From a virus, in the IMG/VR virus record IMGVR_UViG_3300029258_001146, positions 1-27,069 of that record: a stretch of 27,069 nt of DNA. One strand, given 5' to 3'. The notes beneath the pieces are model-generated. The model did no database searches, was not told where the DNA came from, and saw only the letters and a list, made by a program, of their open reading frames with translations. The number at the start of each line of letters is the position of its first letter. The stretch's first letter is position 1. Below are positions 8,280 through 27,069 of this stretch, piece by piece. Both the position numbers and the translations under genes were made by a program.

Positions 8280-9092
8280 ATGGACACAGGATGGATTAAA
8301 CTTCACAGAAGAATGATTAAATGGGAGTGGTACTCTGACGGAAATACCTTTAGAGTTTTTATGCACTTGCTATTAACTGCGAACTATGAAGATAGCCGAT
8401 ACAAAGGGTATTTAATACCTCGTGGAAGTGTAGTAATTGGTAGACAAAAATTGGCTAAAACCCTTACTATTACTGAACAGTCTGTTCGCACAGCAATAAA
8501 TCATCTAAAATCAACCAACGAAATAACCATCAAGGTAACCAACAAATTTTCTATCGCAACCATTGTAAACTATGACTTTTATCAAGATGTAGACGATGAA
8601 ATAACCAGCAAATCAACCATCAATCTAACACCCTATCAACCAACAACTAACCAACAACTAACCACATCTAAAGAAGTAAAGAATATAAGAAGTAAAGAAA
8701 TAAAGAATAATATATTGTCCGAAAATTCTGAAAATGACAAATTAGCACAACATGACAACATTGGGGATACAGCATCAACCTCTGAAATGGTGTTAGTAGC
8801 CAATATAGATTCCGCCCCGCCCGATTTTTCGGAATTTTGGCAAGCCTATCCTCGCAAGACGCAAAAGGTGGTTGCTGAAAAAGCGTGGAACAAATTAAAA
8901 GATGAAGAAAAATTTGTAGCCTTAGAGAAGATTGACGATTTTTGCAAGGGTAAGGAGATGCAATTTATAGCACACCCAAGCACGTACATAAACCAAAAGC
9001 GGTGGGAAGATGAAGTTATCGAACCCACAAAGAAAGTTGAACAAGCAAATGTTAGTAAACAGTACATACCTGAAAGAGATGATTGGGTTTGA
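8280..9092 (+). CDS. Replication initiator / replisome organiser
   Basis: A 270-aa protein of the phage replisome-organiser type. The N-terminus MDTGWIKLHRRMIKWEWY leads into a winged-helix domain, with LAKTLTITEQSVRTAINHLK (about 60-79) as the turn and recognition helix. A low-complexity Thr/Asn/Gln/Lys linker follows (about 115-175). The C-terminal domain opens with DFSEFWQAYPRKTQKVVAEK, the familiar 'FW.aYPrk' motif of these proteins, which usually contacts helicase or loader. Such proteins bind iterons in their own gene, melt the origin and load the helicase. Matching iteron-like repeats lie in the linker-coding DNA. The next gene encodes the primase-helicase, the expected partner. Confidence 0.82.
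   Translation: MDTGWIKLHRRMIKWEWYSDGNTFRVFMHLLLTANYEDSRYKGYLIPRGSVVIGRQKLAKTLTITEQSVRTAINHLKSTNEITIKVTNKFSIATIVNYDFYQDVDDEITSKSTINLTPYQPTTNQQLTTSKEVKNIRSKEIKNNILSENSENDKLAQHDNIGDTASTSEMVLVANIDSAPPDFSEFWQAYPRKTQKVVAEKAWNKLKDEEKFVALEKIDDFCKGKEMQFIAHPSTYINQKRWEDEVIEPTKKVEQANVSKQYIPERDDWV
8513..8716 (+). other. Candidate replication origin inside the initiator gene
   Basis: AACCAAC occurs at 8513, 8537, 8638 and 8649, with further AACCA cores at 8615 and 8660. The copies at 8638-8648 and 8649-8659 are a perfect 11-bp tandem repeat (AACCAACAACT) with a partial third. Directly downstream, the 13-bp sequence AAGAAGTAAAGAA is repeated at 8671-8683 and 8687-8699, in a stretch almost free of C that continues to about 8716. 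Iterons followed by an easily melted A-rich tract, all within the initiator gene, match the lambda O type of origin. No protein binding can be shown from sequence. Confidence 0.5.
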
Positions 9093-11975: not shown

Positions 11976-11998
11976 CTGGCGTATGAACTATTAAGTGG

Positions 11999-12060
11999 CA
12001 ATACAAAATCCTATTCACTACCTTGTCGGACAAGATTAACAAGCAGTTAGGGTTGTATTG
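11999..12060 (+). other. Nested inverted repeats, candidate structured RNA
   Basis: Three nested pairings can be drawn: CAATACAA (11999-12006) with TTGTATTG (12053-12060), CCTA (12010-12013) with TAGG (12048-12051), and an apical CTTGT (12022-12026) with ACAAG (12030-12034). The segment lies in the non-coding stretch after the Cys-rich gene. There is no U tract after it, so it is not a simple terminator. A regulatory RNA element, or the 5' leader of the small genes that follow, is possible. Confidence 0.4.
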
Positions 12061-12063
12061 AGA
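12033..12063 (+). repeat. Copy 1 of a diverged 31-nt repeat
   Basis: It shares the pattern ACAAGC-G-T--G-TTGTATT-AGAAAA with 12509-12539, and nearly all differences are purine-purine or pyrimidine-pyrimidine changes. It overlaps the 3' side of the nested inverted repeat. Both copies lie shortly upstream of small genes. Confidence 0.45.
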
Positions 12064-12080
12064 AAATAACTGGTAAGTAT

Positions 12081-12134
12081 ATGATTAGTGCCTTGTATGA
12101 AAAAATCAACGTTAACGGTAAAAAAGGCACTTAA
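12081..12134 (+). CDS. Possible 17-aa micro-ORF (MISALYEKINVNGKKGT)
   Basis: ATG at 12081, stop at 12132-12134. The stop shares its last base with the ATG of the next micro-ORF (TAATG). The reading frame runs through an inverted repeat, AGTGCCTT (12087-12094) with AAGGCACT (12124-12131), whose hairpin would enclose most of it. It is too short to judge by composition. It may be a leader peptide or chance. Confidence 0.25.
   Translation: MISALYEKINVNGKKGT
12087..12131 (+). repeat. 8-bp inverted repeat with palindromic loop
   Basis: AGTGCCTT at 12087-12094 pairs perfectly with AAGGCACT at 12124-12131. The intervening loop contains the palindrome CGTTAACG (12110-12117). It could fold as RNA or bind a dimeric protein as DNA. 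Confidence 0.45.
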
Positions 12135-12172
12135 TGTATGAAATAACCAACATTAAAAAAACCAAAATATGA
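12134..12172 (+). CDS. Possible 12-aa micro-ORF (MYEITNIKKTKI)
   Basis: It starts on the last base of the previous stop (TAATG) and ends by overlapping the next gene's start (ATGA at 12169-12172). It could serve to pass ribosomes into the 64-aa gene. Only the overlaps support it. Confidence 0.22.
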   Translation: MYEITNIKKTKI

Positions 12173-12363
12173 TTATTCATTGTACAATTAACGAAAAAAA
12201 CGAAATAAAGCCTAAAAATGAAACCAAGGCTATAAAAGTCGAATATATCCAAAATGGTGGGTACTGGGCAAAATGGTATGAGGCTTACAATAATAAACAC
12301 GCAAAGGCTTTGTTTATGGAAGAACATATCGACTTCGAATATTTTCGATGCAAAACGTATTAA
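12169..12363 (+). CDS. Small hypothetical protein (64 aa)
   Basis: A 64-aa basic, aromatic-rich protein: MIIHCTINEKNEIKPKNETK, then a helix with YWAKWYEAYNNKHAKALFME (about residues 32-51) and a short end DFEYFRCKTY. There is no membrane segment or recognisable motif. It sits in a run of tiny reading frames joined by overlapping stop/start signals. The coherent amphipathic helix makes it more convincing than its micro-ORF neighbours. Function unknown. Confidence 0.5.
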   Translation: MIIHCTINEKNEIKPKNETKAIKVEYIQNGGYWAKWYEAYNNKHAKALFMEEHIDFEYFRCKTY

Positions 12364-12502
12364 ATGCACCACAACAGTCGTATAAAACACGGTTCTCACT
12401 AATGAACACTAAACTATTGATAACCGATAAAAACAACCAAAAGCCAAAGGGCAACGAAGGGAAATGAACATTGTAATGTTTTTTAGGCGACTTGAAAAAT
12501 AA
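12364..12502 (+). other. Chain of three micro-ORFs
   Basis: Immediately after the stop at 12363, ATG 12364 opens 12 codons to a stop at 12400-12402. That stop overlaps ATG 12402 (21 codons, MNTKLLITDKNNQKPKGNEG and one more), whose stop at 12465-12467 overlaps ATG 12464 (12 codons, MNIVMFFRRLEK, stop 12500-12502). Each is too short to assess alone. The repeated overlaps are what stands out. Confidence 0.22.
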
Positions 12503-12508
12503 CAGTTA

Positions 12509-12539
12509 TATACAAGCGGCTGAGATTGTATTAAGAAAA
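12509..12539 (+). repeat. Copy 2 of a diverged 31-nt repeat
   Basis: Related to 12033-12063 through ACAAGC-G-T--G-TTGTATT-AGAAAA. It ends 2 nt before the ATG at 12542, so it forms the whole translation-initiation region of that gene. Confidence 0.45.
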
Positions 12540-12541
12540 AT

Positions 12542-12748
12542 ATGAATAAGTACACAAGAAAAGCGGTATTTATTTGCTTGAAGAAATACGACCACACAGC
12601 AAATGAACAAGACTTTATAGAAGTTACCGAATGGAAAAATGGTGAGGGGTTTGATGTTGAAATAGTAGGTAAGTTAAGCACAAGGTTTCAATTAACTTGG
12701 GGCGAATACACCGCTTTGAAGAAGTTGATAAAAAAACTTGACAGTTAG
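12542..12748 (+). CDS. Small hypothetical protein (68 aa)
   Basis: A 68-aa protein with a likely beta-beta-helix layout: KAVFICLKKY, then FIEVTEWKNGEGFDVEIVGK, then LTWGEYTALKKLIKKLDS as a C-terminal amphipathic helix. The balanced composition and clear secondary-structure pattern support a real gene. It is preceded by the 31-nt repeat and followed 18 nt downstream by a 9-bp hairpin. Function not recognised. Confidence 0.6.
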   Translation: MNKYTRKAVFICLKKYDHTANEQDFIEVTEWKNGEGFDVEIVGKLSTRFQLTWGEYTALKKLIKKLDS

Positions 12749-12765
12749 TGTTACTGTTATACATT

Positions 12766-12794
12766 GTTGTAAAATCGTTTTAATGTTTTACAAC
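12766..12794 (+). terminator. Hairpin after the 68-aa gene, possible terminator
   Basis: GTTGTAAAA (12766-12774) and TTTTACAAC (12786-12794) form a perfect 9-bp stem with an 11-nt loop. It lies 18 nt after a stop and before the next promoter region, where a terminator would be expected. No run of T follows, so intrinsic termination would be weak. It could instead be a protein-binding site. Confidence 0.4.
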
Positions 12795-12882
12795 TTGTTG
12801 CTAAACGTAGTTCAAAAAATTGCACCAACCACAAACAACCAAAAACCAATAAGATATAACAAATTTTGTCCCAACTATTTAC

Positions 12883-12890
12883 TATATTTG
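12883..12890 (+). promoter_or_regulatory. Candidate -7 box upstream of the co-chaperonin
   Basis: TATATTTG matches TAnnTTTG. The nearest TTTG (12865-12868) is 14 nt upstream, shorter than the normal 19-20. It lies 88 nt before the ATG at 12979, leaving a leader that contains three tandem heptamers. Confidence 0.4.
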
Positions 12891-12937
12891 GTGCAAATTA
12901 TTTAAACAGAAAGCGATTAGTTCAAAATTTTGTGCTA

Positions 12938-12958
12938 AATTCGCAATTCGCAATTCGC
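12938..12958 (+). repeat. Three tandem heptamers (AATTCGC) before the co-chaperonin gene
   Basis: AATTCGC occurs three times without a gap at 12938-12944, 12945-12951 and 12952-12958, followed by the near-copy AAATCG. The array ends 20 nt before the ATG at 12979. It may be an operator, or slipped-strand variable DNA that tunes spacing. Confidence 0.7.
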
Positions 12959-12978
12959 AAATCGTAAAATATTTAAAC

Positions 12979-19266: not shown

Positions 19267-20244
19267 ATGAATTGGGAGACCCATCATTCGGCGATTATAA
19301 AATTATCCGCAAAAGGATTAAGTTCTTCTGAAATTCTGAAAGAGTTAAAAAAAGACAATCCTAAATTAATATTTTCTACTTCTTCGGCAGAAAGAATTAT
19401 TAGGAGAATAGTAAGCGAAAACCAAGGTATTATCAACCAACTTATCTCCAAGAAAAACATGGATAACTGCAAAGTGCTGGTCTTTGATATTGAAACCTAC
19501 CCTTTCTTAGCTTACTCTTTCAATAAGTGGAAAACAAATATCAGCGATGACTTTATCGTACATGATTGGGGTATGTTGTGTTGGTCGGCAAAGTGGTTAT
19601 TTTCCGATGAGGTAATGTCTGATAGAATGACACAGGAGGAGCTAAATAACTTAGACGACAGTAGAATTTCACGCTCTATATGGGAACTGATAAACGAGGC
19701 GGAAGTTTTAATTGCACACAATGGCGTGAAGTTCGATATTAAGAAGGTCAATACACGGTTCTTGGAACATGGTATTGGCAGACCCTCTCCCTATCAGGTC
19801 ATAGATACATTAATCCATGTGCGCAAAAGATTTTCTATTACCTCTAACAGGTTGGACTATATCGCTAAAAACTTCTTTGGCATAGAGGGCAAGCTAAAGA
19901 CCGAACAGGGGCTATGGCGTAGGTGTATGGATAAGGACTACGAGGCTTTGGAGTTTATGGATGAGTACTGCCAACAAGACGTAAAGGTCTTGGAAGATGT
20001 TTACTTGCTTATGAGAGCATGGATAAGCCCACACCCTAACTTGGCACTATTGTCTATTACAGACAGCGAGGGGTGTCCCGTGTGCCTTTCTGATAAAAGA
20101 GAGTACACTAACACTACCTACAACACTTATGTGAATAGGTATGAGGCTTACAGGTGCTTGAATTGCGGTCATATTTATAGAAGCAGGACATCACTCACGC
20201 CATTACGAGATAATAAGGGGATGAAAGTAAGTACGCCTAATTAA
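19267..20244 (+). CDS. DEDD 3'-5' exonuclease with C-terminal zinc ribbon
   Basis: A 325-aa protein with three parts. Residues 5-60 look like a helix-turn-helix (LSAKGLSSSEILKELKKDNP). Residues 68-255 form an RNase H-like exonuclease: KVLVFDIETYP gives Asp74 and Glu76, IAHNGVKFDIKKVNTRF gives Asp157, and YCQQDVKVLED gives Tyr234 and Asp238, the DEDDy set. Residues 265-305 hold a zinc ribbon with C270-x2-C273 and C297-x2-C300. It resembles the YprB/RNase_H_2-type nucleases and PolB proofreading domains, but has no polymerase domain. It would trim DNA or RNA 3' ends in replication or recombination. The fusion of DNA-binding, nuclease and zinc parts is complete and in frame. Confidence 0.85.
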   Translation: MNWETHHSAIIKLSAKGLSSSEILKELKKDNPKLIFSTSSAERIIRRIVSENQGIINQLISKKNMDNCKVLVFDIETYPFLAYSFNKWKTNISDDFIVHDWGMLCWSAKWLFSDEVMSDRMTQEELNNLDDSRISRSIWELINEAEVLIAHNGVKFDIKKVNTRFLEHGIGRPSPYQVIDTLIHVRKRFSITSNRLDYIAKNFFGIEGKLKTEQGLWRRCMDKDYEALEFMDEYCQQDVKVLEDVYLLMRAWISPHPNLALLSITDSEGCPVCLSDKREYTNTTYNTYVNRYEAYRCLNCGHIYRSRTSLTPLRDNKGMKVSTPN

Positions 20245-22167: not shown

Positions 22168-22569
22168 ATGGCTAACCATTGCAAACAGTGTGGAGATAAG
22201 TTTATTCCTAAGTACAAGACAACAGAAATGTTTTGTAGTTCCATCTGTTCTGTATTGTATAAAAAAGAAAGGTATAAGGGTAAGAAGAAAAAACCAATAA
22301 AGAAAGTAAGCGATAAAAGACGTTCGCAGCTATACACCTACTTCATGATGAAGAAAGCATACATGGATAAGCATAGCGTGTGTGTAGTGTGTAATGCTAA
22401 AGACGCTACGGACATACATCATATGAAGGGAAGAGAAAATGAGTTATTATTGGATATTAATTATTGGTTGCCTGTGTGTAGGGGGTGTCATCGTAAGATA
22501 ACAGACGACAGCACATGGGCTATCCGCATGGGTTATTCATACAAGCGGAATGGGCAGGCAGACCTATAA
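22168..22569 (+). CDS. HNH endonuclease with N-terminal zinc knuckle
   Basis: A 133-aa protein with two parts. Residues 5-30 hold a zinc ribbon, CKQCGDKF at 5-12 and FCSSICS further on. A basic linker follows (KGKKKKPIKKVSDKRR). The C-terminal part is an HNH domain: CVVCNAKDATDIHHMKGR (HH as the metal/catalytic His pair), NYWLPVCRGCHRKI with the second zinc Cys pair, and WAIRMGYS. HNH proteins of this type nick or cut DNA in packaging, homing or host-genome degradation. It is away from TerL, so a packaging role is less likely here. It overlaps the next gene by 20 nt. Confidence 0.85.
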   Translation: MANHCKQCGDKFIPKYKTTEMFCSSICSVLYKKERYKGKKKKPIKKVSDKRRSQLYTYFMMKKAYMDKHSVCVVCNAKDATDIHHMKGRENELLLDINYWLPVCRGCHRKITDDSTWAIRMGYSYKRNGQADL

Positions 22570-22981
22570 GACAACACGACAAACTATAAACACCGATACT
22601 GGCGAGGTCACACAAATTGACAAATGGTATCGCAAGGCTTATGATGCCGACAACTTTATAAAGCTGATGGTAGATAGCTTGCACCGCTTGCTTGTATTGA
22701 CAAAAGGGGAGTATGATGTTCTAATAGGGAGTATACGGTTTGTAGACTTTGACAGCACTTTCAGAGCAGATGCAAGGTATAAGGAAATATTGGGTAGTAT
22801 CACGGATAAGAACGCCACTTCCATTTCCAACATTTTATCGTCATTGGTAAAGAAGGGGGTTTTGTATAGGGTTAGTAGGGGGACTTATGAGTTGAACCCA
22901 CAGATTATGTGGAAAGGTTCGGAGGTTAATAGGATGAAAAGGGTAGCGTATTACAAAGAGATTGCGCTAAGGGAAAAGTAA
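22550..22981 (+). CDS. RepL-like winged-helix protein
   Basis: A 143-aa protein matching the RepL/replication-protein winged-helix pattern. The start TYKTTRQTINTDTGEVTQID is followed by a helical part with the Arg/Asp-rich segment FDSTFRADARYKEILGS. The turn and recognition helix are TDKNATSISNILSSLVKKGV (about 85-104), and the wing is YRVSRGTYELNPQIMWKG (about 106-123), the common 'L.r.srG.Y.lNP.i.wkG' ending of plasmid RepL proteins. It may regulate or help initiate replication, or be a repurposed plasmid initiator. It overlaps the HNH gene by 20 nt and is followed by a perfect palindrome at 22993-23013. Confidence 0.78.
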   Translation: MGRQTYKTTRQTINTDTGEVTQIDKWYRKAYDADNFIKLMVDSLHRLLVLTKGEYDVLIGSIRFVDFDSTFRADARYKEILGSITDKNATSISNILSSLVKKGVLYRVSRGTYELNPQIMWKGSEVNRMKRVAYYKEIALREK

Positions 22982-24247: not shown

Positions 24248-24703
24248 ATGATAGATAAATACACCTTAGAACAAGTAACAATGGCTGTTAATCATTGGAG
24301 TATGTGCAAGGTGGAAGCACCATACATAGAGGCGTTTTTAGACCGCACACCAATAGAACACGCACAAAAAGAAAGTACACCCTCTACCGAGGCTGAAAAT
24401 ACACCCTCTAAAGAAAGTGAAAGTATACTTTCTACCGAAAGCAAAAGTACGCCCCCTACTAAAAGTGAGAGTACGCCCCCCTACAACTATGTAGACCCCC
24501 CACACTACACAGTCGGTTCAATAGAGGTAATAGACATGATGGTAAGGATATGGGGAGAACAAAGGGTAGCTGATTATTGCGAGATAAACGCCTTTAAATA
24601 CCGTATGAGAATTGGCAAAAAACCACACCAAACATTAGAACAAGAACTTAAAAAGGCTATATGGTACGAGGATAAGGCTAAAGAACTAAGAAGTAAAATG
24701 TAA
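24248..24703 (+). CDS. DUF3310-like protein with octapeptide repeats
   Basis: A 151-aa protein in three parts. Residues 1-40 are helical (YTLEQVTMAVNHWSMCKVEA). Residues 43-78 are four and a half copies of an 8-residue Ser/Thr/Pro/Glu repeat of the form S-T-P-S-T-E-S-E. Residues 79-151 match the DUF3310 pattern: DPPHYTVGSIEVIDMMVRIW, then CEINAFKYRMRIGKKP and LKKAIWYEDKAKEL, as in 'HY....iEvid.......a....nafKY..R.g.K......dl.KA.wY'. T7 gp1.7, a nucleotide kinase, is to my recollection in this family. A nucleotide-related role is possible. It lies 27 nt after the methyltransferase and ends the gene block before a long non-coding region. Confidence 0.78.
   Translation: MIDKYTLEQVTMAVNHWSMCKVEAPYIEAFLDRTPIEHAQKESTPSTEAENTPSKESESILSTESKSTPPTKSESTPPYNYVDPPHYTVGSIEVIDMMVRIWGEQRVADYCEINAFKYRMRIGKKPHQTLEQELKKAIWYEDKAKELRSKM
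24374..24481 (+). repeat. 24-bp coding tandem repeat (4.5 units)
   Basis: Units of 24 bp built around 'AGTAC(A/G)CC(C/T)(C/T)CTAC' encode the octapeptides at residues 43-50, 51-58, 59-66 and 67-74 plus a half unit. The units have diverged but keep frame and the Ser-Thr-Pro core. The region probably forms a flexible, extended linker. Confidence 0.8.
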
Positions 24704-24774
24704 TACCAATAAGTGCAAAAATAGTGCGCAAATGTGACGATACAAATACACCCTAAAATACACTAAAAAAGGGA

Positions 24775-24845
24775 GAAGTTCATCACACAGAGTAACTATA
24801 CACATCCCCACAATGAACTTCAATACTCCACACAATGAAGTTCTC
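24775..24845. repeat. Inverted and direct AAGTTC repeats
   Basis: GAAGTTCAT (24775-24783) is the exact reverse complement of ATGAACTTC (24813-24821). A third copy, ATGAAGTTCTC, follows at 24835-24845. The second and third copies are both preceded by CACA. The set could form a hairpin or three half-sites for a DNA-binding protein. Confidence 0.65.
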
Positions 24846-24996
24846 TAACACAACTAATTGAAAACCATACATTTAATTAGTTTATTCCTTCTCTTCTATC
24901 TGTACCGTTAACCAAAATACCAAATTATGCTATTTTGTAACACAATGCTGTTATAGCGCAAATACACGCTCACAGGCATAAACACCCACTGTATGA

Positions 24997-25153
24997 CACA
25001 TTACCCCACTCGTATGCTAAAGTTGCTTAGAACGTCTTAAAATGCGTAATAGAGGGTAGTGGGTAGAAAAATCATGTGACAGACAGTTTGTAGGATAATG
25101 TGTGTTTTAGGATAGTGGGGGAAAAATTATGTGTGTGTTAAGATAGTGGGGAG
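24997..25153. repeat. Direct repeats around GATAGTGGGG, with one inverted copy
   Basis: Related units are AGGGTAGTGGG...AAAAATCATGTG (from 25053), AGGATAATGTG (from 25092), AGGATAGTGGGGG...AATTATGTG (from 25109) and AAGATAGTGGGGAG (25140-25153). CACATTACCCCACT at 24997-25010 is an inverted relative (AGTGGGGTAATGTG). The repeated G-runs look like an array of protein sites rather than terminators. Confidence 0.6.
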
Positions 25154-25449
25154 TACCCCCCGCATTCGCCCCCGCCCACCACCAAACCGAAAGCACCCCC
25201 AAGCTGTTTTTATATACGTTTTTGCATTTTCAAAATCGAAAATTGTAGAACCTACTTTTGACCCGACAATATGAAAAGCTAAAATGAAACGAGATGCTCT
25301 GCTCTTCGCCTCCACTCCTTTGTGGTAACTTTGTTCTGTCGGTCAAGGGAAGAGAAAAAGCGCAGGGACTCCCCCTCCCCTCCACAAACACACACAAACA
25401 CCACCACCACAAGCCACACGATTTTTTTTGCAATTATTTTTGTATTTTA

Positions 25450-25481
25450 TTTGGTAAATTAAATACTAAATATTACCTTTG
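25450..25481 (+). promoter_or_regulatory. Promoter A (TTTG-N20-TACCTTTG)
   Basis: TTTG at 25450-25453 and TACCTTTG at 25474-25481 are separated by 20 nt. The ATG at 25518 is 36 nt downstream. The flanks (TTTTATTTGG before, and the same -7 box) are nearly identical to promoter B at 26650-26681. Confidence 0.8.
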
Positions 25482-25517
25482 TATTGCTTGCAGGTAGTAA
25501 GCATAAAACAAGTTATT

Positions 25518-25859
25518 ATGAAAGTTATAAATGGTGTTAAAATCGTTATGGGTGTTAATGGCAAACCCGAATTCCACATTCCATCTGGTATGACTGGTGC
25601 TGCTTTTACAGAGTGGCGCAGGGACAACTCGGGGGCTATTGCTGCGGCTATTGATTCTATGAGTGTACCTGTTGCTTCTGATTCGGTTACAGATAGTAAT
25701 GCCCCTATTGCTTCGCCTGTTAAAGTGGTGACTATTGGCAAAGTAGTGGTAATTGTTTCAGATGGCAAGTTGTCTTTTAAACTGCCAGATGGCATGACGG
25801 CTAAAGGATTGGTGCAATGGAAACGCCGCAATGCCGCTATTCTATCTGATTTACTATAA
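25518..25859 (+). CDS. Small protein made of an internal duplication
   Basis: 113 aa from the ATG at 25518. An upstream in-frame TTG at 25479 overlaps the promoter. Two halves match each other: residues 7-41 (VKIVMGVNGKPEFHIPSGMT, then TEWRRDNSGAI) and 74-108 (GKVVVIVSDGKLSFKLPDGM, then VQWKRRNAAIL). The shared pattern is 'vkiv..vnGk..f.iP.GMt......eW.Rr..aai', and a Ser/Ala/Val-rich linker joins them. Each half would be a beta-hairpin plus a helix with Trp and basic residues, so the protein may bind nucleic acid or act as a built-in dimer. Family unknown. It has its own promoter and is followed by a hairpin. Confidence 0.7.
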   Translation: MKVINGVKIVMGVNGKPEFHIPSGMTGAAFTEWRRDNSGAIAAAIDSMSVPVASDSVTDSNAPIASPVKVVTIGKVVVIVSDGKLSFKLPDGMTAKGLVQWKRRNAAILSDLL

Positions 25860-25895: not shown

Positions 25896-25909
25896 ATCAC
25901 TAAAACAAT

Positions 25910-26320: not shown

Positions 26321-26332
26321 TCAAATACTCAA

Positions 26333-26374
26333 CCACCTTCGCCCCGCTCCGTAACTGGTGCGGGGTATTGGTGG
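26333..26374. other. Long two-part stem-loop after the DWGGY gene
   Basis: An outer stem CCACC (26333-26337) with GGTGG (26370-26374) and an inner stem CCCCGC (26342-26347) with GCGGGG (26360-26365) are separated by a symmetrical 4-nt internal loop and capped by a 12-nt loop. It lies 12 nt after the stop at 26320. A run of A rather than T follows, so it may act as mRNA 3'-end protection or a non-canonical terminator. Confidence 0.6.
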
Positions 26375-26405
26375 CAAAAAAATTAATAAACTAAAATAAA
26401 AACAA

Positions 26406-26649: not shown

Positions 26650-26681
26650 TTTGGCATTATAAATACAAATTTATACCTTTG
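26650..26681 (+). promoter_or_regulatory. Promoter B (TTTG-N20-TACCTTTG)
   Basis: TTTG at 26650-26653, 20-nt spacer, TACCTTTG at 26674-26681. The ATG at 26711 is 29 nt downstream. It is nearly the twin of promoter A at 25450-25481 in both boxes and spacing. Confidence 0.8.
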
Positions 26682-26710: not shown

Positions 26711-26995
26711 ATGATGTACACAAAAGAAACACTAAAAGACATTAAGACGGCAAGCGATGTGAAATATGCGCTTCCCGAAAGTAGCTATTTTTTTAGCCGT
26801 GACACTATGCGCTTTTTTGGCGATAAAATGACATCTTTTGGCGTGAAATGGGATGACGGTAAAAGAATTTTATACCGCAAACCTTCGGCGATGGTAAACG
26901 TATTTGGCACATGGAAGAGGGCAGGCAACGAATTCTCAAGAAAATGGGAAATCGTACCAAAATTTGACCACATAGAATTGATACCACTTAATTAA
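26711..26995 (+). CDS. Conserved hypothetical protein (SYFFSRDTMRFFGDKM)
   Basis: A 94-aa protein with the stretch SSYFFSRDTMRFFGDKMTSF (about residues 24-43), then a beta-rich end (KRILYRKPSAMVNVFGTWKR, KWEIVPKFDHIELIPLN). The 'YFF.rdtmrFFGdkm.sfgv' signature is familiar to me from hypothetical proteins of phages and conjugative elements, without known function. A second ATG directly after the first makes 26714 an equally good start. It has its own promoter 29 nt upstream and a branched terminator about 10 nt downstream, so it is an independent unit. Confidence 0.75.
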   Translation: MMYTKETLKDIKTASDVKYALPESSYFFSRDTMRFFGDKMTSFGVKWDDGKRILYRKPSAMVNVFGTWKRAGNEFSRKWEIVPKFDHIELIPLN

Positions 26996-27003
26996 ACCAC
27001 CTA

Positions 27004-27058
27004 TCCCGTTCCACCTTAGGGGTGCGCTGGTTCATGACCAAAACGGGAGCTATTTTTT
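27004..27058 (+). terminator. Branched (three-way) terminator-like structure
   Basis: The outer stem TCCCGTT (27004-27010) pairs with AACGGGA (27042-27048). Inside are two small arms: CACC (27012-27015) with GGTG (27021-27024), and TGGT (27028-27031) with ACCA (27037-27040). Six T follow at 27053-27058. Position just after the stop at 26995 and the U tract support termination. The branched top is unusual. Confidence 0.65.
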
Positions 27059-27069
27059 AACCAATAAAC

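Follow-up and report, generated by a model that had tools for sequence, protein, structure and literature searches.

The window analysed here, a linear virus record of 27,069 bases taken at its full length, is a genome fragment of a Crassvirales-related phage, and it contains one long non-coding gap that is probably a transcription boundary: a terminator or insulator that would close the upstream operon, followed by a promoter for a group of small orphan genes. The role of the gap is most likely ordinary gene regulation and not a new system of replication origin, packaging or recombination. The initial annotation had regarded the gap as a candidate cis-acting system, and a cis-acting role is supported by the consensus promoter, the hairpins and the extremely strand-asymmetric C-rich tracts that we located in it. 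The gap and its flanking genes are as follows.

24248 to 24703, plus strand: DUF3310 gene (PF11753, E 2e-11), the last gene of the upstream block.
24704 to 25517, no strand assigned: non-coding region, delimited by the list of gaps and by codon scores.
25518 to 25859, plus strand: small orphan gene that opens the downstream block, with its ATG at 25518.

The gap extends over 814 bp, from the DUF3310 stop codon (24703) to the ATG at 25518, and is by far the largest in the window, where the next gaps measure 230, 193 and 178 bp and the median is 9 bp. The codon scores of its stop-to-stop frames (at least 25 aa) ranged from -0.14 to 0.07 in comparison to 0.09-0.33 for the genes of the window, and neither these scores nor a family search of the frames tested revealed any hidden protein, which agrees with the original description of a 0.8-kb non-coding stretch in a packed genome. 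The unusual length of the gap could also be that of a decayed gene or a recent insertion without function, and the 12-base ACAATATGAAAA at 25266 does match the gene start at 25905. However, we detected no coding signal and no plasmid or phage homology, the frames tested matched no family, and such an explanation appears quite unlikely; the decayed gene that had been put forward as a possible refutation thus remained unsupported.

The crAss-type capsid, portal, terminase and ring proteins by which Crassvirales are recognised were all present. Judging from these sequences, the phage is a distant, undescribed crAss-like lineage from the environment: its terminase was only about 21-25% identical to those of crAss phages among the phage records, and the nearest larger terminase group among the viral contigs reached 31-36%. 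The plus-strand genes include those for a DnaD/O-like replication initiator, a primase/helicase, the crAss ring protein (PF25702), a RepL-family protein, a DNA methyltransferase and the DUF3310 protein, and the capsid, portal and terminase genes lie on the other strand.

0.4 to 7.6 kb, minus strand: genes including those for the major capsid protein (PF23898), the portal (phrog_6547) and the large terminase (phrog_6681).

The genes of the downstream block are small and have no recognised relatives. For the first of them (25518-25859) we found no family above chance and no relative among the viral contigs; its protein carries an internal duplication (IPSGMTGAAFTEWRRDN / LPDGMTAKGLVQWKRRN). Elsewhere in the window, the region 11976-12978 has a cassette-like layout that combines small genes with three long gaps, and a motif recurs in it (CAAGCAGTTAGGGTTGTATTGAGA at 12040, CAAGCGGCTGAGATTGTATTAAGA at 12513). 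Further on, 37 bases (12758-12794) containing the palindrome TTGTAAAATCGTTTTAATGTTTTACAA are 97% identical to positions 5166-5202 of contig L006, which otherwise matches the window weakly, in DUF3310 and a short stretch of an HNH protein. In addition, 85 bases of the window (19484-19568) are missing from the otherwise 99.9% identical record L027; the RNase H-like gene at 19267-20244 is out of frame without them, and the difference is either an assembly error or a real variant.

Immediately behind the upstream block, the gap contains exactly three AAGTTC-type sites in both orientations, as initially counted: GAAGTTC at 24775 (plus), 24815 (minus) and 24837 (plus). We rejected the idea that this cluster is an operator array, since the count alone was unexceptional: 13 other clusters of three 7-mers occurred in the window, and shuffling the region produced one in 33 of 500 cases. 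The three sites are the arms of hairpins that lie directly downstream of the last stop codon in the long plus-strand operon.

24772 to 24847, plus strand: hairpin region with three GAAGTTC arms and two pairing modes, fold -16 kcal/mol.
24852 to 24882, plus strand: A/T-rich hairpin with a pyrimidine-rich stretch behind it, z -4.35.
24765 to 24821, minus strand: intrinsic-terminator-like hairpin (24821-24775; stem -15.8 kcal/mol) followed by T6 (24770-24765).

The plus-strand hairpins, which lack a clean U run, had fold z-scores from -3.7 to -5.2. The segment 24770-24890, including the next stem, folded at -22.6 kcal/mol (z -3.7), and within 24808-24850 alone, where the second and third GAAGTTC sites pair, the z-score was -4.0. 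Located 70-180 bases past the last stop codon of the block, these hairpins occupy the usual position of a terminator. On the minus strand we found the stable stem and U run expected of an intrinsic terminator, the T6 beginning four bases on and the loop and stem being longer than usual. The size of the gap and the strong fold at 24770-24890 could also speak for a structured non-coding RNA of a new type. However, an Rfam search of the gap gave no match up to E 1 and the fold z-scores were near zero across 24920-25240, and we consider such an RNA very improbable. Strong hairpins were also seen between or after the small genes, at 26321-26405 (-27.6 kcal/mol) and at 26990-27060 (-16.9 kcal/mol), the latter followed by a T run in the manner of an intrinsic terminator.

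The C-rich block noticed in the initial annotation is real, at about 25156-25200 and 25369-25420, and belongs to a wider set of tracts on both strands.

24796 to 24873, plus strand: first rut-like tract, C/G 5.75.
25046 to 25123, minus strand: rut-like tract, complementary to most of the G-rich GATAGTGGGG repeats, C/G 9.33, the highest on that strand of the window.
25156 to 25235, plus strand: C-rich tract with 32 C and 9 G.
25369 to 25446, plus strand: second rut-like tract, just ahead of the promoter, C/G 7.5.

When the C-minus-G excess was calculated for 80-base segments of the whole 27 kb, the top segments of both strands lay in the gap, at 25361-25440 (plus) and at 25075-25154 (minus), the latter being the complement of the GATAGTGGGG repeats. 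Shuffles of the region reached the minus-strand excess in 0 of 500 cases and the plus-strand excess in 7 of 500. Rut-like tracts were scored by the rule of RhoTermPredict (PMC6407284), which was established for E. coli, B. subtilis and Salmonella and looks for a 78-nt tract with more C than G and a C every 11-13 nt. Such tracts were found at 24796-24873 (plus), 25369-25446 (plus) and 25046-25123 (minus), and by C/G the gap holds number 1 of the minus strand and numbers 2 and 5 of the plus strand. The match is only suggestive because the rule is permissive: 3335 plus-strand and 3745 minus-strand 78-nt segments of the record pass its loose spacing requirement. The minus-strand tract was essentially unstructured, and the plus-strand tracts folded weakly. 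Taken together, these features suggest that the tracts are candidate Rho-dependent terminators. They resemble the terminators with C>G rut sites (PMC6407284) in being untranslated, C-rich, G-poor, little structured and regularly spaced in C over 78 nt, and the first tract overlaps at its end with a hairpin (24852-24882); this stem is A/T-rich, whereas the published rule expects a GC-rich stem within 150 nt downstream. They differ in that the rule was built on bacteria outside Bacteroidetes, and the tracts here are terminators by prediction.

At the other end of the gap, next to the small genes, lies a putative promoter, a near-copy of which occurs further downstream.

25450 to 25481, plus strand: Bacteroidetes-type promoter by consensus match, TTTG-N20-TACCTTTG (equivalent to TTTGG-N19-TACCTTTG).
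26650 to 26681, plus strand: second promoter of the same type by pattern match, a near-copy ahead of the gene at 26711.

Sigma-ABfr promoters, the main promoters of Bacteroides, have the consensus TTTG at about -33 and TAnnTTTG at -7 (PMC7366714). In the gap, TACCTTTG at 25474-25481 fits the -7 element, and TTTG at 25450-25453, 20 nt before it, fits the -33 element; by consensus, 25450-25481 would be a textbook Bacteroidetes promoter. The pattern TTTGG-N17-22-TACCTTTG occurred twice in the window versus 0.01 times expected, both sites lying at most 40 bases ahead of gene starts of the small block, and a scan for sigma-70-type promoters yielded no more than chance. The likeness to Bacteroides sigma-ABfr promoters (PMC7366714) thus consists in both elements, about 20 nt apart, and in the presence of two such sites ahead of small genes; here, however, the promoters are phage-borne and putative.

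Behind the stop codon, hairpins with a C-rich tract come first, then the repeats, C-rich tracts, the promoter and the small genes, and this arrangement suggests that one transcript ends in the gap and the next begins there, with protection against read-through in both directions. The transcript of the long plus-strand block would continue beyond the DUF3310 gene through untranslated 3' RNA that contains hairpins, formed by the AAGTTC arms and by the A/T-rich stem, along with rut-like stretches rich in C and poor in G, and host Rho and the hairpins could stop it there. The second rut-like tract may insulate the presumably strong host-type promoter at 25450-25481, from which the small orphan genes would be transcribed as a unit of their own. 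The G-rich GATAGTGGGG repeats are the complement of the minus-strand C-rich tract, which together with the hairpin and T6 (24821-24765) could stop antisense transcription coming from the opposite direction. On the other hand, a gap of 814 bp would be a long one for a simple boundary, and no minus-strand promoter that needs an antisense terminator was established.

The repeats themselves exceed what is expected by chance, as judged against dinucleotide shuffles of the region.

25039 to 25064, plus strand: weak third copy of the 26-nt repeat, 69% identical.
25095 to 25120, plus strand: 26-nt repeat with GATAGTGGGG, reference copy.
25126 to 25151, plus strand: 26-nt repeat with GATAGTGGGG, 88% identical, 31 bp on.

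The strongest direct match within the gap was the pair at 25095 and 25126, with a score of 18.5 against a shuffle mean of 10.4 (reached by 0 of 200 shuffles). The number of 6- to 8-mer pairs on both strands was reached by 0-1 of 500 shuffles, and there was no excess of exact repeats of at least 10 nt over shuffles. The overall short-repeat excess is consequently real, but the four direct repeats of the initial annotation were a generous count: GATAGTGGGG has two exact copies (25111 and 25142), the third site is GGTAGTGGGT at 25055 with two mismatches, and the fourth (25094) has three. Its inverted relative was found as CATTGTGGGG at 24806 (2 mismatches) and ACGAGTGGGG at 25004 (3 mismatches).

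It is possible that the two 88% identical repeats serve some separate function. Since Crassvirales carry virion RNA polymerases that transcribe early genes (PMC10136315) and the repeats lie upstream of small orphan genes, GATAGTGGGG could be a promoter element, arrayed for the phage's own polymerase ahead of an early block. However, we found no further copy of the element in the window or in that part of the close relative that was fetched, and an exact pattern scan of the viral contigs detected none; a host-type promoter is already present in the gap, and no polymerase gene was seen in this fragment. We regard such an array as very unlikely.

The main functional rival of the transcription boundary is a replication origin, because a RepL-family gene (22550-22981; PF05732, E 3.5e-8, above the curated cut-off) lies 1.7 kb upstream; the 26-nt repeats would then be initiator sites for its product. 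This possibility fits a large gap that has repeats and differs in composition between its strands. Nevertheless, the region contains no DnaA box, the repeats, with only two good copies, do not amount to an iteron array, and the cumulative GC skew, a check proposed at the outset, has its minimum near 7.8 kb and no large-scale inversion at the gap. A better-looking origin candidate exists at 8.5-8.7 kb, where tandem repeats adjoin AT-rich DNA near the skew minimum, in the initiator gene at 8.3-9.1 kb. In phage P1, the repL origin is located within the repL gene itself. The nearby RepL-family gene recalls the P1 lytic replicon and RepL plasmids, whereas here the gap lies 1.7 kb downstream and is without the origin features tested. 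An origin served by the RepL-family protein is accordingly given little credence, and the earlier suggestion of a second origin gained no positive support, although the RepL-family gene leaves it some plausibility. Packaging start and recombination site, proposed alongside it, gained no positive support either: the gap is 17 kb from the terminase genes, and no recombinase was among the proteins searched. A broader reading, in which the 26-nt GATAGTGGGG repeats and the switch from G to C at 25154 mark a start site of this undescribed crAss-like lineage's own, be it RepL-origin initiator sites or virion-polymerase early promoters, is likewise considered unlikely.

Two observations on replication genes stand apart from the gap. 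The RepL-family (PF05732) plasmid replication protein co-occurs with a DnaD/O-like initiator in a crAss-like fragment. Inside the initiator gene, 8508-8729, close to where the GC skew reaches its minimum, contains direct repeats, a perfect tandem of the 11-bp AACCAACAACT (x2.5), a tandem of the 8-bp TAAAGAAG (x4.9) and a palindrome rich in A and T; by analogy, it resembles a lambda-type origin within an initiator gene.

No relatives spanning the gap were found among near and distant phage records, plasmids, genome contigs or viral contigs, the last scanned by protein, repeat pattern and profile. Close viral contigs (L014-L018, 83-96% DNA identity) do not reach 24.7-25.5 kb, and L013, 99.9% identical over 19.5 kb, ends at window position 20086. 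The best phage-record match to the gap, to Bacteroides phages BT566P1, BT566P2 and BT638P2 (37 bp, E 0.2), falls inside an annotated gene in the record inspected and was taken as chance; methyltransferase matches were discarded as well, as they led to unrelated gene neighbourhoods. Of seven records of distant relatives, whose terminases are 32-36% identical, five contain a gap of 0.47-0.67 kb upstream of that gene.

L141, 6995 to 7668: gap upstream of terminase.
L136, 1407 to 1943: gap upstream of terminase.
L139, 1855 to 2445: gap upstream of terminase.
L147, 1808 to 2282: gap upstream of terminase.
L149, 14211 to 14679: gap upstream of terminase.

These gaps neither support nor refute the transcription boundary because they share no visible sequence with the window and lie in another place.

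Crassvirales are reported to be transcribed in early, middle and late modules and to contain blocks of short genes of unknown function (PMC10136315). The gap resembles the borders of such modules in that it belongs to a related virus group and adjoins a block of short unknown genes; unlike them, it comes from a phage whose terminase is only 21-26% identical to those of the crAss phages compared, and the likeness is one of gene layout and not of border sequence. If the transcription boundary is correct, it would help to delimit gene blocks in an undescribed environmental crAss-like lineage by showing where one transcript ends and where a host-type promoter precedes the orphan genes, and the paired C-rich tracts would offer a case in which Rho-type termination could be tested for a Bacteroidetes phage.
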